Source: a virus. From it: DNA of 24,673 nt. Of this stretch, positions 15,691 to 24,673 are shown piece after piece. The DNA lies in IMG/VR virus record IMGVR_UViG_3300038626_000004, positions 1 through 24,673 of that record. One strand, 5' to 3'. Below the pieces are notes generated by a model that worked only from the letters and a program-made list of their open reading frames with translations, was not told the DNA's origin and made no database searches. The position numbers and the translations under genes are program-made. The first letter of the stretch is position 1. Each line of letters begins with the position of its first letter.

Positions 15691-16104
15691 TCACTCCCAC
15701 GGCTCGCACGCCAGCCCACACGCCTCTAGTACGTCATGATATCTAGGCCAGCGCCAGGTACTCGCAGCCACCGTGTCCCCCCTGGAGATCACACCGGCCC
15801 CCATCAGCGAGTGTAGCAGGGATGTGATCACCAAGGTAGCCACGCCTCGACCCCGGTGCTCCTCGCTGACATAGGCACCTATTACAGGCTGACCATCCCA
15901 CTCATAGGTAAGCGCGGCCCACCCGGTGATCTCTCCATCCTCAAGCGCTAGAGCGGTCCATGTGCTGCCGTCGTGGTGCGTGAGGCTCCACAGACCCCAG
16001 GCCACTGGACCGATCGTCAACTCGCGCAGGCGCGCGCGGTAGCCTACAGGCAGGTCACCCATTTTTGAGATCAGGATCTGATTCGATTTTCGCGGCGCGG
16101 CCAT
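15691..16104 (-). CDS. GNAT-family N-acetyltransferase
   Basis: This is 137 aa from the ATG at 16104; a GTG at 16128 would add 8 residues but lies inside a 15-bp block conserved at the other hairpin element. The GNAT acetyl-CoA motif A is clear: PVIGAYVSEEHRGRGVATLV followed by ITSLLHSLM, with RGRGVA as the pyrophosphate-binding R/Q-x-x-G-x-G/A signature. An upstream strand pair (TWTALALEDGEITGWAALTY) and a C-terminal RYHDVLEACGL complete the fold. The substrate is unknown. Such enzymes in phages can acetylate host proteins or inactivate small molecules. It sits inside the head-gene cluster between the Mu-F-like gene and the protease gene. Confidence 0.8.
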   Translation of the reverse strand: MAAPRKSNQILISKMGDLPVGYRARLRELTIGPVAWGLWSLTHHDGSTWTALALEDGEITGWAALTYEWDGQPVIGAYVSEEHRGRGVATLVITSLLHSLMGAGVISRGDTVAASTWRWPRYHDVLEACGLACEPWE

Positions 16105-16115
16105 TCCCTGAAGGG

Positions 16116-16130
16116 TACCACTGAGCACTT
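16116..16130. repeat. Upstream box shared with second hairpin element, copy 1
   Basis: TACCACTGAGCACTT here matches TACCACTGAACATTT at 24066-24080 at 13 of 15 positions. It lies 20 bp before the TTGACG of copy 1 but only 5 bp before that of copy 2, so it is a separate conserved block. It overlaps the alternative GTG start of the acetyltransferase gene and may be a protein-binding site. Confidence 0.4.
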
Positions 16131-16148: not shown

Positions 16149-16270
16149 TTTGACGTTTCATGTTTCAACGTGGTAGGTTAAGCGACCAGCACGGTGGCGG
16201 CGGTGAGGCCCCAGCCAAGGCACCCCACCCGCATCCGTTCCTGGTCGCTTACCTGATACTACCTAAGGTG
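16149..16270 (+). ncRNA. Duplicated covarying hairpin element, copy 1 (candidate structured RNA)
   Basis: A long hairpin: AGGT (16175-16178) pairs with ACCT (16251-16254); after a one-base bulge AAGCGACCAG (16180-16189) pairs perfectly with CTGGTCGCTT (16241-16250); then ACGG (16191-16194) pairs with CCGT (16235-16238). The apex 16196-16236 is 40/41 identical to copy 2, as are the flanks (16149-16182 and 16253-16270, three differences in all). The stem arms differ but stay paired. TTGACG at 16150-16155 would serve as a -35 on the plus strand, but the implied start falls inside the left arm. The strand, and even whether the active form is RNA or single-stranded DNA, is therefore unsettled. Not a tRNA or any RNA family I recognise. 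Confidence 0.65.
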
Positions 16271-16285
16271 TACACGGATCCTGTT

Positions 16286-16299
16286 GTAGTGCGCTTGTA
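16286..16299 (+). promoter_or_regulatory. GTAGTGC-N-Y-TTG-Y-A control motif, site A
   Basis: GTAGTGCGCTTGTA overlaps the -35 of the ribbon-helix-helix gene. Three other intergenic sites share it (19011, 21339, 23859). It reads as two TTGTAGT-type half-sites with an 11-bp period (16284 and 16295). Confidence 0.55.
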
Positions 16300-16311
16300 G
16301 TTGTACTACAA
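16295..16311. promoter_or_regulatory. 17-bp palindromic operator TTGTAGT-TGT-ACTACAA
   Basis: Perfect 7-bp inverted repeat with a 3-bp centre, overlapping the spacer and -10 of the promoter for the ribbon-helix-helix gene. A further direct half-site TTGTAGT lies 11 bp upstream. The arrangement suits dimers of a ribbon-helix-helix repressor bound side by side, so negative autoregulation is likely (inference). Confidence 0.6.
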
Positions 16312-16318
16312 TCGCACT

Positions 16319-16516
16319 ATGGTTAAGAACAGGCCCATCCAGATACGATTGAACGAGGAAGAGCGCGCCGCCGTGGAGGCCCGCGCAGAGTCCGAGGGGA
16401 CCTCTATCAGCGCCGTCATTCGGAAGGCTATGGAAGTACACCTGAAGAGGCCGTGTGCCCGGTGCGGTGGTAGCGGTCGCGAGCCCCGCGCGTCGAGGCT
16501 CCTACCTGATGGATGA
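16319..16516 (+). CDS. Ribbon-helix-helix (CopG/Arc-like) DNA-binding protein with CxxC tail
   Basis: This is 65 aa from the ATG at 16319; the frame is open from 16301, but the promoter -10 ends at 16312. Residues 5-12 (RPIQIRLN) form the DNA-contacting strand, EEERAAVEARAESEG helix A and SISAVIRKAMEVHL helix B, the classic ribbon-helix-helix layout. After it comes RPCARCGGSGREP, a CxxCxGxG zinc-binding-like knuckle, unusual for Arc-type repressors. A palindromic operator overlaps its own promoter and similar sites recur in other control regions, so it may be a phage-wide regulator. It ends 20 bp from the convergent Mu-F-like gene. Confidence 0.8.
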   Translation: MVKNRPIQIRLNEEERAAVEARAESEGTSISAVIRKAMEVHLKRPCARCGGSGREPRASRLLPDG

Positions 16517-18937: not shown

Positions 18938-19010
18938 GCACGGATTGTGCCATAAATTAGCGGTGGGATCCCTGTTTTCTGGGCAAGAATGCATTAACAG
19001 GCTGTACAGG

Positions 19011-19024
19011 GTAGTGCGTTTGTA
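19011..19024 (+). promoter_or_regulatory. GTAGTGC-N-Y-TTG-Y-A control motif, site B
   Basis: GTAGTGCGTTTGTA lies in the 100-bp divergent gap between the portal (minus) and the pentapeptide gene (plus). TATACC follows at 19031-19036, two bases before the ATG at 19038, so the promoter is not a clean sigma70 match. The motif could control both divergent genes. Confidence 0.5.
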
Positions 19025-19037
19025 TTACGGTATACCA

Positions 19038-19586
19038 ATGACCGACACGGATCTGAAACAGACACTAAAAATGCACTCTAAGTGGCTGCGCGGCGAAGCC
19101 GAAGGCGAGCGCGCGGACCTTCGACACGCGGACCTTCGACGCGCGGACCTTCGACGCGCGAATCTTCAAGGCGCGGACCTTCGACACGCGACCCTGTACG
19201 GCGCGGACCTTCGACGCGCGGACCTTCAAGGCGCGAACCTTCGATACGCGACCCTTCGACGCGCGGACCTTCGATACGCGACCCTGCACGGCGCGGACCT
19301 TCAAGGCGCGAACCTTCGACGCGCGGACCTTCGACACGCGACCCTTCAAGGCGCGGTCTACAGCTGGCAGTCTCATTCGTTGATCGCCGAGACACTGAGA
19401 CAAGCTGCCGGGGACTCAATCTCACGCAGATCCCTAGCGGGTCTGATCCTAGTCTCACATGATTGGTGCTGGGATGTGTGGGATACACTCGATCATCCTG
19501 AGAGGGCCTGGGCGCTAGATGTCTTGCGAGGGTGTGTACAAGACGGTGATGAAGCGCCTGAGATTTTGAAAGGAACCGACAAATGA
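19038..19586 (+). CDS. Pentapeptide-repeat protein
   Basis: This is 182 aa from the ATG at 19038; the open frame extends back to 18786, but that part is antisense to the portal. After a 25-residue helix ([18 protein letters not shown]), residues 26-105 are 16 uninterrupted A-[DNT]-L-X-X repeats, enough for four turns of the right-handed quadrilateral beta-helix used by DNA-mimicking Qnr/MfpA proteins. A C-terminal globular part ([20 protein letters not shown], then [17 protein letters not shown]) follows. The function is unknown; DNA mimicry or gyrase protection is a family-based guess. No Shine-Dalgarno is seen. It is the first gene of a coupled chain leading to the amidase. Confidence 0.85.
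19113..19352. repeat. Sixteen-copy 15-bp tandem repeat encoding the pentapeptides
   Basis: The coding DNA is itself a near-perfect tandem repeat with consensus GCGGACCTTCGACGC. All sixteen units begin with the same GCG Ala codon, and Leu is only CTT or CTG. Codon homogeneity this high points to recent expansion by slippage or unequal recombination rather than only protein-level selection. The repeat also creates long false ORFs on both strands. Confidence 0.9.
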
Positions 19587-20030: not shown

Positions 20031-20707
20031 AGATCGACATCGCGATCCAATGCCCCTCTAAGCGGTCCCTATTACACCGGCGCAAGCTAGAGCCATACGG
20101 TCTTGCGGTGCACACCAGCGGGCGGGGGATCATCAGGCGAGCCATGCGCAAGGGCGTGGACCCGATAGATCTGGCCTTGGCGTGGTATCAGCGCAAAGGA
20201 TCCGTGCACTTCGTGATCGACTACGACGGCACGATCTACCAGATCCTAGACACGGCTGTCCGGGGAGCTCACATCGGCGTGTCCAGACTCGAGCGTAGGC
20301 GCTACCTCAACGGCACCTGGCACAAACGCCTTAGTCATGAGGGCGTGGTGCGCTGGCATAAGCGCTGGCCCGGTTTCAAGAGCCCGCAACACCTCTACCC
20401 CGGCAAGAGCCCAAACGGCGCCTACATCGGTGTGGAGGTCCTACCGCTGTCCCATATGCGTGTGGTGACCGGTGGGGGGCATAAGGGGACGTGGTTTACT
20501 GAGCGGCAGTACTCAGCGGTTGCCCGCCTGTGGATTGCCCTGTGGGTACAGCACGGTACTTGGGGCTGCAACGCGCTATCCCCCGGCCCACGGCTGGTGG
20601 GTCATGAGGACGTGGACGCCTTCGGGCGGTGGGATCCGTTTGGCGGCTGGGACCCGGGCGCCATGCGTGTGCGGCCGCGCTTCGATTGGAATCTGGTCTT
20701 CGAGTGA
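20027..20707 (+). CDS. N-acetylmuramoyl-L-alanine amidase (Amidase_2), endolysin candidate
   Basis: A 226-aa zinc amidase that would cut the MurNAc-L-Ala bond of peptidoglycan. Amidase_2 features: H29 in AVHTSGRG; SVHFVIDYDGTIYQILDTAV (58-77) then RGAHIG with H81; IGVEV (134-138); and the C-terminal zinc site H193 in VGHEDV with D209 in GWDPG. H29, H193 and D209 are the predicted zinc ligands. No signal peptide or wall-binding domain is present, so export would need a holin, which is not evident here. An extra insert around 90-125 is rich in basic and aromatic residues. It is the last gene of the coupled chain. The likely role is host lysis, although a virion or prophage-exclusion role is possible. 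Confidence 0.85.
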   Translation: MKIDIAIQCPSKRSLLHRRKLEPYGLAVHTSGRGIIRRAMRKGVDPIDLALAWYQRKGSVHFVIDYDGTIYQILDTAVRGAHIGVSRLERRRYLNGTWHKRLSHEGVVRWHKRWPGFKSPQHLYPGKSPNGAYIGVEVLPLSHMRVVTGGGHKGTWFTERQYSAVARLWIALWVQHGTWGCNALSPGPRLVGHEDVDAFGRWDPFGGWDPGAMRVRPRFDWNLVFE

Positions 20708-20812: not shown

Positions 20813-21058
20813 GTGACCCATACAGCAAACGGCGTACTAATTCACAAACAAGTTTGTGGCGGTCGCCTCGAGATGCGCGTCAACGACAAGCGCGCAAAAG
20901 GCGCCTACGAGCTTTGGACCTGCGAGAAGGGGCAGGAGTGTAAAGGATCTCCTGCTGCTCGTGGCTACCCTTACGTAGGTAGAGGTAAGTGCCTGCGCGA
21001 GCCCGGCCCGGTGCCTGATAAAGATCTCGACTTTGATCTGAGCGACACCGAAGAATAG
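20813..21058 (+). CDS. Small Cys-rich protein with acidic tail
   Basis: The GTG at 20813 is chosen because AGGAAAGG lies 9 nt upstream; an in-frame ATG at 20786 is possible and would make 90 aa. The 81-aa product has four Cys (VCGG, WTCEKGQECKG, GKCLREPG) that may bind zinc, and an acidic end DKDLDFDLSDTEE. The last eight codons and the following bases are an exact copy of the end of the gene at 21373-21729. The family is not recognised. Confidence 0.58.
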   Translation: MTHTANGVLIHKQVCGGRLEMRVNDKRAKGAYELWTCEKGQECKGSPAARGYPYVGRGKCLREPGPVPDKDLDFDLSDTEE

Positions 21059-21064
21059 AGCAGG
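21034..21064 (+). repeat. 31-bp direct repeat, copy 1
   Basis: Identical to 21705-21735. It covers the final codons (LSDTEE and stop) of the Cys-rich gene plus AGAGCAGG after the stop. It may mark the junction of a duplicated or exchanged module. Confidence 0.85.
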
Positions 21065-21337: not shown

Positions 21338-21365
21338 TTGCAAACGCACTACAATCTGATAGAGT
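21338..21365 (+). promoter_or_regulatory. Promoter of the acidic-tailed gene, with control motif site D
   Basis: TTGCAA (21338-21343), 16 bp, TAGAGT (21360-21365), then seven bases to the ATG at 21373, again consistent with a leaderless message. The minus strand of 21339-21352 reads GTAGTGCGTTTGCA, one of the four copies of the shared control motif, and overlaps the -35. Confidence 0.48.
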
Positions 21366-21372
21366 CTTAGAC

Positions 21373-21729
21373 ATGGAAACGAAACACACCAACGAAATCG
21401 CCGCTCTCCCCATCACCGGGTACACCGCAAGGATCACCGCTCGCACCTATGACTCGACGGCACCCGACCGTCCCGGCGCGGTGGACGCTACTATCTACCT
21501 CGACGGAGTGGAAGTCGGCGAGGTGACCCTAGTCCCCGGGCATGATGGCCAGATCTCTACCTGGGGGCCGGGGCTAGATCACTGGGCCGACGACAGACTC
21601 TCCGACCACATCGAGAGGATCGGATACAACGGGCCCCTCGGCGAGATCGGCGAGATCGACGAGATCGTAGAGGCCGTGCGCAAGGCCGACACCGAAGACG
21701 ACTCTGATCTGAGCGACACCGAAGAATAG
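21373..21729 (+). CDS. Acidic uncharacterised protein
   Basis: This is 118 aa from the ATG at 21373; a TTG at 21322 lies within the terminator's T tract and is rejected. It begins METKHTNEIAALPITGYTAR with a beta-rich N-terminal half (ITARTYDSTAPDRPG ... IYLDGVEVGEVTLVPGHDGQ), then a short helical part and a strongly acidic end (KADTEDDSDLSDTEE). The end is shared at DNA level with the gene at 20813-21058. The family is not recognised. It is convergent with the terminase gene, separated by a perfect palindrome. Confidence 0.6.
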   Translation: METKHTNEIAALPITGYTARITARTYDSTAPDRPGAVDATIYLDGVEVGEVTLVPGHDGQISTWGPGLDHWADDRLSDHIERIGYNGPLGEIGEIDEIVEAVRKADTEDDSDLSDTEE

Positions 21730-21735
21730 AGCAGG
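21705..21735 (+). repeat. 31-bp direct repeat, copy 2
   Basis: Exact copy of 21034-21064, here forming the end of the acidic-tailed gene. The 671-bp spacing spans the helix-turn-helix gene, its terminator and most of this gene. Confidence 0.85.
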
Positions 21736-21756: not shown

Positions 21757-21774
21757 AGCGCGCCTAGGCGCGCT
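21757..21774. terminator. 18-bp perfect palindrome between convergent genes
   Basis: AGCGCGCCTAGGCGCGCT lies between the acidic-tailed gene (plus) and the terminase stop (minus, 21773-21775). It can fold on either strand with a 7-bp GC stem. There is no T tract, so it would be a weak or Rho-assisted bidirectional terminator, or a protein site. Confidence 0.5.
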
Positions 21775-23419
21775 ACAGGTTCCCCAGGGCGCTCATACGC
21801 TGCCCTGGGGTCATGCCGGACATGTCCGCTAGGGCTTGGGTCACCATATCCACCTGGTCGTCATAGGCGCCGTTAGGGAACGTGGCGAACTCCTCCACAA
21901 AGTCCTCGCGCCACGCGGCGTGACGGGGTAGGTAAACGTCCCCGGCCTCTACCGTGGGCAGACACGCCACAGCCCTCGAGACCTTACCGCCCTGAGGGTT
22001 GCACGGTACGACGCCCGAGAATTCGCGCGTTAGGGTCTCTATAGCTGCGGAGCCGTTGGCCTTGTCCTCGATCAGGATCTTCTGAATCCAAGGGTACTTC
22101 GCCTTCAGCGCTCGGATCTCCCCTATCATTTCGTTGTACCCCATTTTTCGCGCGATCACCTCGATAACGAAGCGCTTAGGGCCTCGAGCGATGATCACGC
22201 CCAGCGCTACCTGTGAAGTTCCCTCCTCTTTGAAGGTCGCGTCAACGCTAAGCGTGCTCTTGTCAAACTTGGGCACGCCTGAGGCGTTCATCTCGAGATT
22301 GTCATAGGTGCGCCAGAATTTCTTTTTGAACAGCCCCCCTTCGAGGGGGCTGGGGCGCTGCTGGAGCTGTCCAGCGGAGCCGTAGGAGCCCAGCTTTCGT
22401 TTTGTGGCCGCCAGTACCTTAGGCGTGTTTCGATCGGGGTGCAACACCTCACCTTCGGCTCGAGCGTCCACCCACCCGATGAAGCTAGGACCGTGCTTCA
22501 CCTTGCACGCGGCGCACACGATCGGTTTGCCTTCGTCGTTGTGCTCTGGCTCCCTCTCCATGGGGATCACAAGGTGGTGCCAGTCCACGCCCTCAGCGTC
22601 GGAGGCGCCCTTATCGAAGATCGTCCCGGTCAAGTCTCGCTCGTGGATCCGCTGCTGGATGAGGATCCTGATCGCTACGCGCTCGTCGTTCACGCGGTTG
22701 GATGCTGCGCGCCACTTGTCGGCTACGGCCTGTAGCTTCACGTCCGAGACGTCTTTCGAGTCGTTGGGGTCGTCTACTAGGATCGCATCCCCGCGCAAGC
22801 CGGTCACGGTCGCGTTTAGGCCCCTCGAGACCCGGTAGCCGCCTCGGGTGTTGTGGAAGTTTCGTACCCCGTCCTTGTCTTTGCGGAGCGTCCATCTCTT
22901 GCGCTCGGGTAGGGTCGCGATGAACCGCTCGTGGTACCACTCAGAGGTGATCAGCTGTTTGCTCAAGTCGGCGTCACGGTCGGCGACGGTCGGGTTAGCG
23001 GACAACGCGAGGACGCGCCATTCTGGCTTATGGATCCACGCCCACGCGGGCGCGTACACGGAGAGGATCCGACTCTTGAGTGTGCCAGGGGGTACATTGA
23101 CCGCCAAATTCTGGCAGATCTGATCGAAGTTGGGATCTGCCTGGGCTTGCCACTGCCCCTCGATCAAGGCTTGGACGTGATCGCACAGCACGTCGATGTG
23201 CCAGCCCCACTCAAGCGGGGTGGAGGGCTCGAGCACGTGCCAGCCTAGGCGCAGAAACTCGGCTAGGCTCCGCCTGCACAATTCCGCCTCGGACTGTACT
23301 AGCAGCGCCTGAAGGCCCGCCAGGGTGACGCCTGTGGGCAGTTCAGGGGTTTCAGACTGTGGCGGGGGACAGATCGGACAAGGGCCGACTAAGGCCGCTA
23401 GAAGGTGCTCACATGCCAT
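21773..23419 (-). CDS. terL: Terminase large subunit
   Basis: A 548-aa ATPase-nuclease that packages phage DNA. ATPase motifs: Walker A-like NVPPGTLKSR (108-117), Walker B ILVDDP (213-218), and the coupling segment IRILIQQRIHERDLTG (250-265), which is highly characteristic of this terminase family. The nuclease domain starts around 388, with acidic residues D393 (LSVDATF), E451/D452 (ILIEDKANG) and D520/D521/D524 (YDDQVDMV) as metal ligands. The N-terminus has a small Cys cluster (C3, C13, C16). The length is typical. It overlaps the small-subunit gene by 11 bp. It is separated from the portal by the plus-strand island, which is unusual. Confidence 0.92.
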   Translation of the reverse strand: MACEHLLAALVGPCPICPPPQSETPELPTGVTLAGLQALLVQSEAELCRRSLAEFLRLGWHVLEPSTPLEWGWHIDVLCDHVQALIEGQWQAQADPNFDQICQNLAVNVPPGTLKSRILSVYAPAWAWIHKPEWRVLALSANPTVADRDADLSKQLITSEWYHERFIATLPERKRWTLRKDKDGVRNFHNTRGGYRVSRGLNATVTGLRGDAILVDDPNDSKDVSDVKLQAVADKWRAASNRVNDERVAIRILIQQRIHERDLTGTIFDKGASDAEGVDWHHLVIPMEREPEHNDEGKPIVCAACKVKHGPSFIGWVDARAEGEVLHPDRNTPKVLAATKRKLGSYGSAGQLQQRPSPLEGGLFKKKFWRTYDNLEMNASGVPKFDKSTLSVDATFKEEGTSQVALGVIIARGPKRFVIEVIARKMGYNEMIGEIRALKAKYPWIQKILIEDKANGSAAIETLTREFSGVVPCNPQGGKVSRAVACLPTVEAGDVYLPRHAAWREDFVEEFATFPNGAYDDQVDMVTQALADMSGMTPGQRMSALGNL

Positions 23420-23816
23420 CCGGCGGCTTGGCCTCAGCCATGGACAGGATCGCGCCTACCTGGTCTCGCATGGCCAGGATCGCTTCGGTGGGGACGTTGG
23501 ACAGATCCGGCATACCTTCCGCGTCCTTGGCGTCCAGCTCGATCGTTGTGTTGACCGCTTTACCGAAGCCGCGATCAGCAAGCCAGACGAATGCGTCCCA
23601 CACCTCAGAGTGCTTGTAGACATTTTCAGCGTTGCGGAATACCCCGAGCGCGAACCGCACGAGCTCTGCGCCGTCGTCGGTCTGGGCGCGGATCATGGCC
23701 GCTAGGCCTTTGAATTGCTTGGGCCTTCCTACGGGATTCGGGTTTGCAGTCCCTTTTAGGAAGCGTCCTCTACTGTCACGCGATACGGCGGGTGGTTTGT
23801 CTAGTACGTTGGCCAC
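23409..23816 (-). CDS. terS: Small terminase-like protein with DUF5681-type N-terminus
   Basis: A 135-aa protein with a GTG start and AAAGGA at 7 nt. Residues 13-33 (SRDSRGRFLKGTANPNPVGR, then PK) match the DUF5681 pattern seen on many phage small terminase-like proteins. The rest is helical (GLAAMIRAQTDDGAELVRFA and on). It immediately precedes and overlaps the large subunit, which is the main reason for calling it the small terminase, the DNA-recognition partner. No helix-turn-helix is obvious, so the role rests on context. Confidence 0.68.
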   Translation of the reverse strand: MANVLDKPPAVSRDSRGRFLKGTANPNPVGRPKQFKGLAAMIRAQTDDGAELVRFALGVFRNAENVYKHSEVWDAFVWLADRGFGKAVNTTIELDAKDAEGMPDLSNVPTEAILAMRDQVGAILSMAEAKPPDGM

Positions 23817-23834: not shown

Positions 23835-23863
23835 AGGATAGCACGATCCGTACCGACGTACAA
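23835..23863 (-). promoter_or_regulatory. Promoter of the terminase operon
   Basis: On the minus strand TTGTAC (23863-23858), 17 bp, TATCCT (23840-23835), followed by a Shine-Dalgarno and the GTG at 23816. The -35 overlaps control motif site C, so the regulator that binds the motif would control the packaging genes. Confidence 0.5.
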
Positions 23864-23872
23864 AGGCACTAC
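23859..23872 (-). promoter_or_regulatory. GTAGTGC-N-Y-TTG-Y-A control motif, site C
   Basis: The minus strand reads GTAGTGCCTTTGTA and overlaps the -35 of the terminase promoter. Two further GTAGTGC half-sites lie in the same gap on the plus strand at 23998-24004 and 24027-24033. Confidence 0.5.
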
Positions 23873-24083
23873 GCCCCGGCCTCTTCGATCTCGCTCATAG
23901 GTTCTCCCAGGTTTTGCCAATGCGGGGCGCTCGCCACGGGGGTGCGGGGACGGTTCCAGGGTGGGTTGCACGGTTTGGGCCCTACCGCGAATCTGCTGTA
24001 GTGCATCTGTCCGGCGTTGTAAAGGTGTAGTGCAGATAGACTACGCGCCGGGATCTTTTATTTGTTACCACTGAACATTTATA
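23873..24083. other. Non-coding divergent region with half-sites
   Basis: Together with its flanks this is the only gene-free stretch over 300 bp (23817-24246). It holds two GTAGTGC half-sites 29 bp apart (23998 and 24027), the second followed by an inverted GTAG...CTAC. An AT-rich tract lies at about 24052-24086, with TACCACTGAACATTT at 24066-24080 that is shared with the first hairpin element. I see no convincing ORF here. Confidence 0.5.
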
Positions 24084-24207
24084 TTTGACGTTTCATGTTT
24101 CAGCGTGGTAGGGTAAGGACACTAACCGGTTGGCGGTGGTGAGGCCCCAGCCAAGGCACCCCACCCGCATCCCGGCTTAGTGTCCTTCCCTAATACTACC
24201 TAAGGTG
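24084..24207 (+). ncRNA. Duplicated covarying hairpin element, copy 2 (candidate structured RNA)
   Basis: Same architecture as the element at 16149-16270. AGGG (24110-24113) pairs with CCCT (24188-24191); after the same one-base T bulge AAGGACACTAA (24115-24125) pairs perfectly with TTAGTGTCCTT (24177-24187); CCGG (24126-24129) pairs with CCGG (24172-24175). The apex 24132-24172 is 40/41 identical to copy 1, while the arms are rewritten by compensatory changes. The upstream region is AT-rich and carries TTGACG at 24085-24090. It lies between the divergent terminase operon and the plus-strand gene at 24247. Confidence 0.65.
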
Positions 24208-24212
24208 TGTAT

Positions 24213-24246: not shown

Positions 24247-24673
24247 ATGAAAAAGAGTCTGAAGCTAGAACGTAATGGTTATGTAGTACATGTAGAGTCA
24301 GCTCCTGGCAGTCCAGAGGAGGCCGCGCGCCAACTGGTCACACAAGCCGAAGCAATCGAGCGTCAACTAATCGAATCCTTCGGCAAAGAGGCCTTCGGCA
24401 AGAAAGGCGGGGCCAAGGTAGATGCAGCGGTGGCCACCCAAGACGATGAGGCTGTGTCTGCATGGCTAGAGACCCAAGACGCCCCACGGTCTCGGCGGTA
24501 CATCGCGGAGCACTGTCCACTACCTACCCACCGTGTGAACGCCGCGGTCAAACGCATGCTGAAGTCCGGCGCTCTCGAGCTGCGCCCAGCCACGTTCACC
24601 GACGTGCGGGGTACAGATCGCCCCATGCAGGGTGTTTTCTTCGCCGATAGCAGCAGAACGCCCTTGCTACCAC
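24247..24673 (+). CDS. Putative DNA-binding protein, partial (runs off the right edge)
   Basis: 142 codons from the ATG at 24247 to the edge with no stop. It begins MKKSLKLERNGYVVHVESAP, followed by a helix (EEAARQLVTQAEAIERQLIE). The part EAVSAWLETQDAPRSRRYIA followed by HRVNAAVKRMLKSGALELRP looks like a winged helix-turn-helix, the second segment being the recognition helix, but this is weak. It follows hairpin copy 2 just as the ribbon-helix-helix gene follows copy 1. It may be the first gene of a rightward early or regulatory operon. Confidence 0.6.
   Translation, partial: MKKSLKLERNGYVVHVESAPGSPEEAARQLVTQAEAIERQLIESFGKEAFGKKGGAKVDAAVATQDDEAVSAWLETQDAPRSRRYIAEHCPLPTHRVNAAVKRMLKSGALELRPATFTDVRGTDRPMQGVFFADSSRTPLLP

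Follow-up and report, generated by a model that had tools for sequence, protein, structure and literature searches.

Genomic context of the duplicated element

The window analyzed here is a virus record of 24,673 bases from an uncultured tailed phage, in which the - strand carries the terminase, portal, head, capsid and tail genes and the + strand carries genes in small groups. The terminase large subunit gene (21773-23419; phrog_38, 262 bits) is a sure assignment. The nearest phage relatives found are L009/L031 (portal 48% and terminase 51% by alignment), L027 (terminase 44% identical) and MW202816 (34-40%). A + strand group located between the terminase and portal genes includes an amidase endolysin, an HTH gene, and the gene of a pentapeptide-repeat protein (19039-19586) containing 15-nt repeats.

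Two paralogous copies of an element of ~120 nt, which we refer to as C1 (16149-16270) and C2 (24084-24207), are found in the window. Both occupy gaps between divergent genes, with a structural-side gene on the - strand and a DNA-binding regulator on the + strand:

15691..16128, - strand: GNAT acetyltransferase gene, divergent from C1 (PF00583, 34.8 bits; alternative ATG near 16104)
16319..16516, + strand: ribbon-helix-helix (RHH; CopG/Arc-like) regulator gene downstream of C1 (PF01402, 22.2 bits, cut-off 20.5)
23409..23816, - strand: putative terminase small subunit gene, divergent from C2 (assigned by position only)
24247..24673, + strand: winged-helix/MarR-like ORF downstream of C2 (weak assignment, PF12802 at 20.7 bits with a cut-off of 27; runs off the contig)

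The distance from the end of the hairpin described below to the + strand gene is 57 nt for C1 and 48 nt for C2, and the distance to the - strand gene is about 42-66 nt for C1 and 289 nt for C2. In the case of C1, ~2.5 kb lacking any + strand gene precede the next + strand cluster.

Parts and fold of the two copies

The two copies have a common fold of 34 base pairs, which form a single continuous hairpin of about 90 nt. The outer helix consists of GGTAG/CTACC and two additional pairs and is followed by a bulged base. Above it are the main helix, which has 10 or 11 pairs (the arms of C1 and C2 differ by one pair), the inner helix, and at the top an apical helix, whose 13 pairs are interrupted by one mismatch and a two-base bulge and closed by a loop of six bases. 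The parts are as follows, all given on the + strand:

16116..16130, +: C1, outer left common motif TACCACTGAGCACTT, recurring at 24066-24080
16149..16170, +: C1, unpaired conserved left flank TTTGACGTTTCATGTTTCAACG
16172..16178, +: C1, outer helix left arm GGTAG+GT (partners 16259-16263 and 16251-16252; 16179 is the bulged T)
16180..16189, +: C1, main helix left arm AAGCGACCAG
16190..16240, +: C1, inner helix and conserved apex
16241..16250, +: C1, main helix right arm CTGGTCGCTT
16251..16271, +: C1, right foot and flank, containing TACTACCTAAGGTGT
24066..24080, +: C2, outer left common motif TACCACTGAACATTT, counterpart of 16116..16130
24084..24105, +: C2, unpaired conserved left flank TTTGACGTTTCATGTTTCAGCG
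24107..24113, +: C2, outer helix left arm (24114 is the bulged T)
24115..24125, +: C2, main helix left arm AAGGACACTAA
24126..24176, +: C2, inner helix and conserved apex
24177..24187, +: C2, main helix right arm TTAGTGTCCTT
24188..24208, +: C2, right foot and flank, containing TACTACCTAAGGTGT

The left flank of 22 nt is nearly identical in the two copies, and its first 19 nt are found exactly in C1 and C2 and nowhere else in the window. The likeness reaches further left, with TACCACTGARCAYTT at 16116 and 24066 separated from the flank by spacers of different length; this outer motif is weak on its own, as 26 of 100 shuffled sequences contain two such matches. The folding z-scores of the + strand are -3.1 and -4.5, stable structures are predicted for both strands folded as DNA, and C1 and C2 are the sole inverted repeats in the window with perfect arms of at least 11 bp and a loop of at most 90 nt. 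An initial annotation of this DNA had given the sequences, coordinates and perfect pairing of both copies just as we find them. A peptide reading frame across the apex (VRPQPRHPTRI, in both copies) was considered and dropped since it has no ribosome site; its conservation follows from that of the underlying DNA.

Paired changes in the stem

The - strands of C1 and C2 were aligned with MAFFT and one structure of 34 pairs was written on the alignment. Each of the 34 pairs is standard in C1 as well as in C2, and the differences between the copies consist of seven pairs changed on both sides and one inserted whole pair with no one-sided changes, figures which represent one comparison rather than repeated evolution because they come from a single pair of sequences. 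The "about eight" compensatory changes claimed earlier are recovered when the copies are aligned without gaps from the foot (six of the ten main helix pairs, one outer and one inner), and become seven double changes and one inserted pair in the MAFFT alignment. An alignment anchored at the top gives five double changes in the main helix alone.

The correspondence between the arms is unlikely to arise by chance in this comparison. Shuffled partners equaled the observed result in 7 of 500 trials, and sliding the partners by 1-3 columns reduced the paired fraction from 100% to 33-52%. When the changes of one arm were retained and the same number of 3'-arm changes was placed at random, all 15 pairs were kept in 2 of 200,000 trials. 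The differences are also concentrated in the helix, where they affect 16 of 32 columns as opposed to 5 of 86 elsewhere, that is, in the flanks and apex (Fisher p = 2e-7). The earlier proposal that pairing is preserved at the expense of sequence around a fixed apex and fixed flanks is supported.

We consider it probable that the hairpin fold is under selection. The earlier argument that random drift does not produce such a pattern is correct for independent drift, which cannot account for it; it does not extend to quasi-palindrome correction, which could also pair the changes. Quasi-palindrome correction by template switching is an established mutational process at imperfect inverted repeats and can copy changes from one arm to the other. 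C1 and C2 could accordingly be remnants of an old duplicated promoter or operator whose palindrome was perfected by such correction during replication, in which case the paired changes that we count would arise with no function of the stem and no selection on structure. This explanation appears improbable, because correction should have erased both bulges (the single T and the two bases) as well as the mismatch and internal loops, all of which are the same in C1 and C2, and it would not have spared the apex helix from change.

Search for related elements

Searches of Rfam, IMG/VR, GTDB, INPHARED, PLSDB and 97 related-phage loci revealed no relative of the element, so that the two paralogs constitute the whole data set. 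Absence from these collections is not proof, since they may lack the records closest to the window. The exact apex patterns (a 26-mer in IMG/VR and a 22-mer in GTDB) and a pattern combining the left and right foot had no match. An apex 16-mer matched 32 stretches in IMG/VR, none of them with a hairpin whose likeness extends past the core, and we read these matches as chance; a left-flank 16-mer matched two records of one sequence, which lacks the hairpin. Searches with blastn (C1 in INPHARED, C2 in PLSDB) and tblastn (both + strand regulators in INPHARED, the C2 gene in IMG/VR) returned nothing. A covariance model search, suggested in the initial annotation, was carried out with model R1 on 1.47 Mb comprising the window and the related-phage loci and on 20 whole records, and matched just the window's own copies.

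The earlier remark that no known RNA family is recognizable holds for Rfam 15, of which no family reaches the gathering threshold in the window. A permissive scan yielded a single family, the microRNA precursor mir-967, whose 26 and 37 bits compare to a threshold of 70; we take this to be a generic match to a long hairpin. The observation itself is confirmed, and the element is an orphan confined to a single contig.

Folding of the sequences upstream of terL in 27 relatives gave strong signals in L038 and L046, which overlap ORFs or are unconvincing. The gap before the small terminase gene of L009 contains a different hairpin among TTGCCACA repeats, and this hairpin of L009/L031 is not homologous to C1 and C2. 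Several TTGCCACA repeats, both direct and inverted, are found with the long hairpin at positions 4700-4870 of L009 and could represent an origin or a repressor array. A scan for paired hairpins with common surroundings detected one other strong case, in L027 (IMGVR_UViG_3300025652_000006). Like C1 and C2, the two L027 hairpins are upstream of genes running counter to the structural genes, beside a head gene; unlike C1 and C2, their arms are nearly identical between the copies, paired changes are absent, and similarity continues as far as the start codon; the sequence is unrelated. The L027 hairpins, TGTCGCTTTT...AAAAGCGACA, lie at 19380-19560 and 20185-20360, each before a different gene whose start codon ends the common stretch, and a palindrome-like GCACACTGCGTGC is present.

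Promoter-like sequences and terminators

A promoter-like sequence coincides with the left foot of each copy:

16150..16179, + strand: C1, TTGACG-N18-TAGGTT (TG precedes the second hexamer, and the final T is the one bulged from the hairpin foot)
24085..24114, + strand: C2, TTGACG-N18-TAGGGT (the final T is again the bulged one)

The pattern TTGAC-N(17-19)-TANNNT has just two matches in the window, counting both strands, and these are the two left feet, with a chance mean of 0.69, and the two matches count as one event because C1 and C2 are paralogs. A stricter sigma-70 scan found no promoter match at either left foot, and the -10 match is weak. No intrinsic terminator, that is, a GC-rich hairpin followed by a T-run, was called at C1 or C2 on either strand.

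Possible roles of the element

Tentatively, we propose that the element, which is duplicated in two phage control regions and appears constrained in structure, acts from the + strand as nascent RNA close to a promoter. RNA polymerase would start at or near the left foot (TTGACG-N18-TAGGNT) and the long hairpin would emerge among the first RNA. The conserved apex and internal loops might then be bound by RNA polymerase itself or by a phage or host factor, and this binding would alter elongation into the downstream regulator genes and, in the case of C1, across the ~2.5 kb that contain no + strand gene. The stem would serve as a scaffold whose letters are free to change provided that they pair. 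The transcription of the element, its strand, its binding partner and its antitermination-like effect are inferred. The RHH gene has a promoter-like sequence of its own near its ATG, which counts against the proposal. At normal spacing from the promoter-like hexamers, transcription would start at about 16184-16187 in C1 and 24119-24122 in C2, which is inside the left arm; the helix foot, including the outer T-A to G-C change, would be absent from that RNA, making a + strand RNA that contains the whole hairpin less plausible.

We lean slightly to the + strand as the functional one because of the promoter-like sequence and the similar spacing to the two regulators. The alternative that the functional RNA is the - strand, where the hairpin would be part of the leaders of the structural operons and would aid late transcription past counter-running genes, is unlikely but draws on several observations. 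C2 precedes the terminases while C1 precedes the GNAT, DUF2213-like and capsid genes, and a - strand transcript would contain the entire hairpin and the left flank. Two positions in the apex are A.C on the + strand and G.U on the - strand, which folds more stably, with lower energies; this evidence is weak because both copies have the same two positions, and two wobbles identical in both copies would favor the - strand by chance about 1 time in 4. With the - strand covariance model, the scores are 147 and 139 bits for its own copies and just 15-19 for the + strand, but the model was built on the - strand. Moreover, the - strand genes are located at differing distances from the two copies, and no promoter-like site for the - strand occurs at a constant place.

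It is also unlikely, in our estimate, that the element acts as DNA, in the form of a protein-bound cruciform or single-strand hairpin for replication, packaging or promoter control. The long unpaired flanks are conserved as well as the apex, which fits a DNA-protein site, the -10-like hexamer would become part of the hairpin foot upon extrusion, and the stable DNA fold is predicted for both strands. C2 adjoins the terminase genes and the corresponding gap of the relative L009 contains a long hairpin surrounded by TTGCCACA repeats, but two distant copies are ill-suited to a single packaging or origin site. GC-rich helices extrude poorly, and the inner helices of C1 and C2 are GC-rich. A DNA site also leaves the strand-asymmetric wobbles with no reason, although that is a weak point. 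Among known DNA hairpins, integron attC sites are marked at their two ends by GTTRRRY and RYYYAAC boxes, of which inspection by eye shows only the left one in C1 (GTTAAGC) and neither in C2, and the conserved apex of C1 and C2 is unlike attC.

The two copies could instead encode a separate phage small RNA that acts in trans via its conserved apex, a role suggested earlier. This would fit the apex and a possible promoter of its own but is quite improbable, and a cis role is likelier, because no intrinsic terminator follows the hairpin on either strand. A packaging RNA and a single-stranded DNA hairpin were likewise named as candidate roles in the initial annotation.

Comparison with known systems

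The put RNAs of phage HK022 are ~70 nt long, form two stem-loops, and bind the zinc-binding domain of the RNA polymerase beta' subunit; two such elements per genome are located downstream of early promoters, and it is the RNA itself that acts, not an encoded product (PMC9378689). This is the system nearest in logic to our proposal, in that a genome has two control regions, each with a similar structured element, and an RNA that acts on elongation. The position of C1 and C2 agrees with the put-like antitermination role raised in the initial annotation. With regard to a location downstream of early promoters, both feet have the promoter-like TTGACG-N18-TAGGNT but no strict promoter match. The fold differs: we do not class C1 and C2 as put because they form one continuous hairpin of about 90 nt instead of two stem-loops in ~70 nt, and the likeness concerns position and logic, with no sequence relation claimed.

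In the LoaP/dfn system, two leader regions contain nearly the same hairpin, to which an antitermination-promoting factor is recruited (PMC12691694). C1 and C2 are similar in being near-duplicated in two regions, if they are leaders; dfn, however, is a small UNCG hairpin followed by terminators (PMC12691694), whereas neither a NusG paralog nor a following terminator was seen here.

C1 and C2 may conceivably represent a new class of phage control element, acting as nascent RNA or as DNA and consisting of a single long hairpin whose apex is fixed while its stem covaries freely, which would reprogram RNA polymerase in an uncultured myovirus-like lineage, but we regard this as doubtful. To our knowledge, few phage RNA elements alter RNA polymerase alone or via one factor. 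The covariation is unusually clean for two sequences, and two paralogs from one contig amount to a lead, not a family. Two stems with one apex constitute a built-in natural compensatory experiment, which makes arm swaps an easy test.

Other repeated sequences in the window

The motif TGTAGTGCGYTTGTA with at most three mismatches occurs six times in the window compared to 0.68 expected occurrences:

16285-16299
16307-16321, - strand
19010-19024
21339-21353, - strand
23859-23873, - strand
23997-24011

A related sequence, TGTAGTGC, is found at 24026. All six sites are in or near the gaps before the RHH gene, the pentapeptide gene, the ORF at 21373 and the small terminase gene. They are candidates for a set of operators, which the ribbon-helix-helix protein might bind. 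In the first of these gaps, TTGTAG-N17-TACAAT at 16284-16321 lies just 6 nt before the RHH ATG, which lacks a Shine-Dalgarno site, and the mRNA is possibly leaderless. Finally, a 37-nt repeat (97%) at 21028-21064 and 21699-21735 ends two + strand ORFs that otherwise differ, giving both the common tail DLSDTEE followed by the stop codon.
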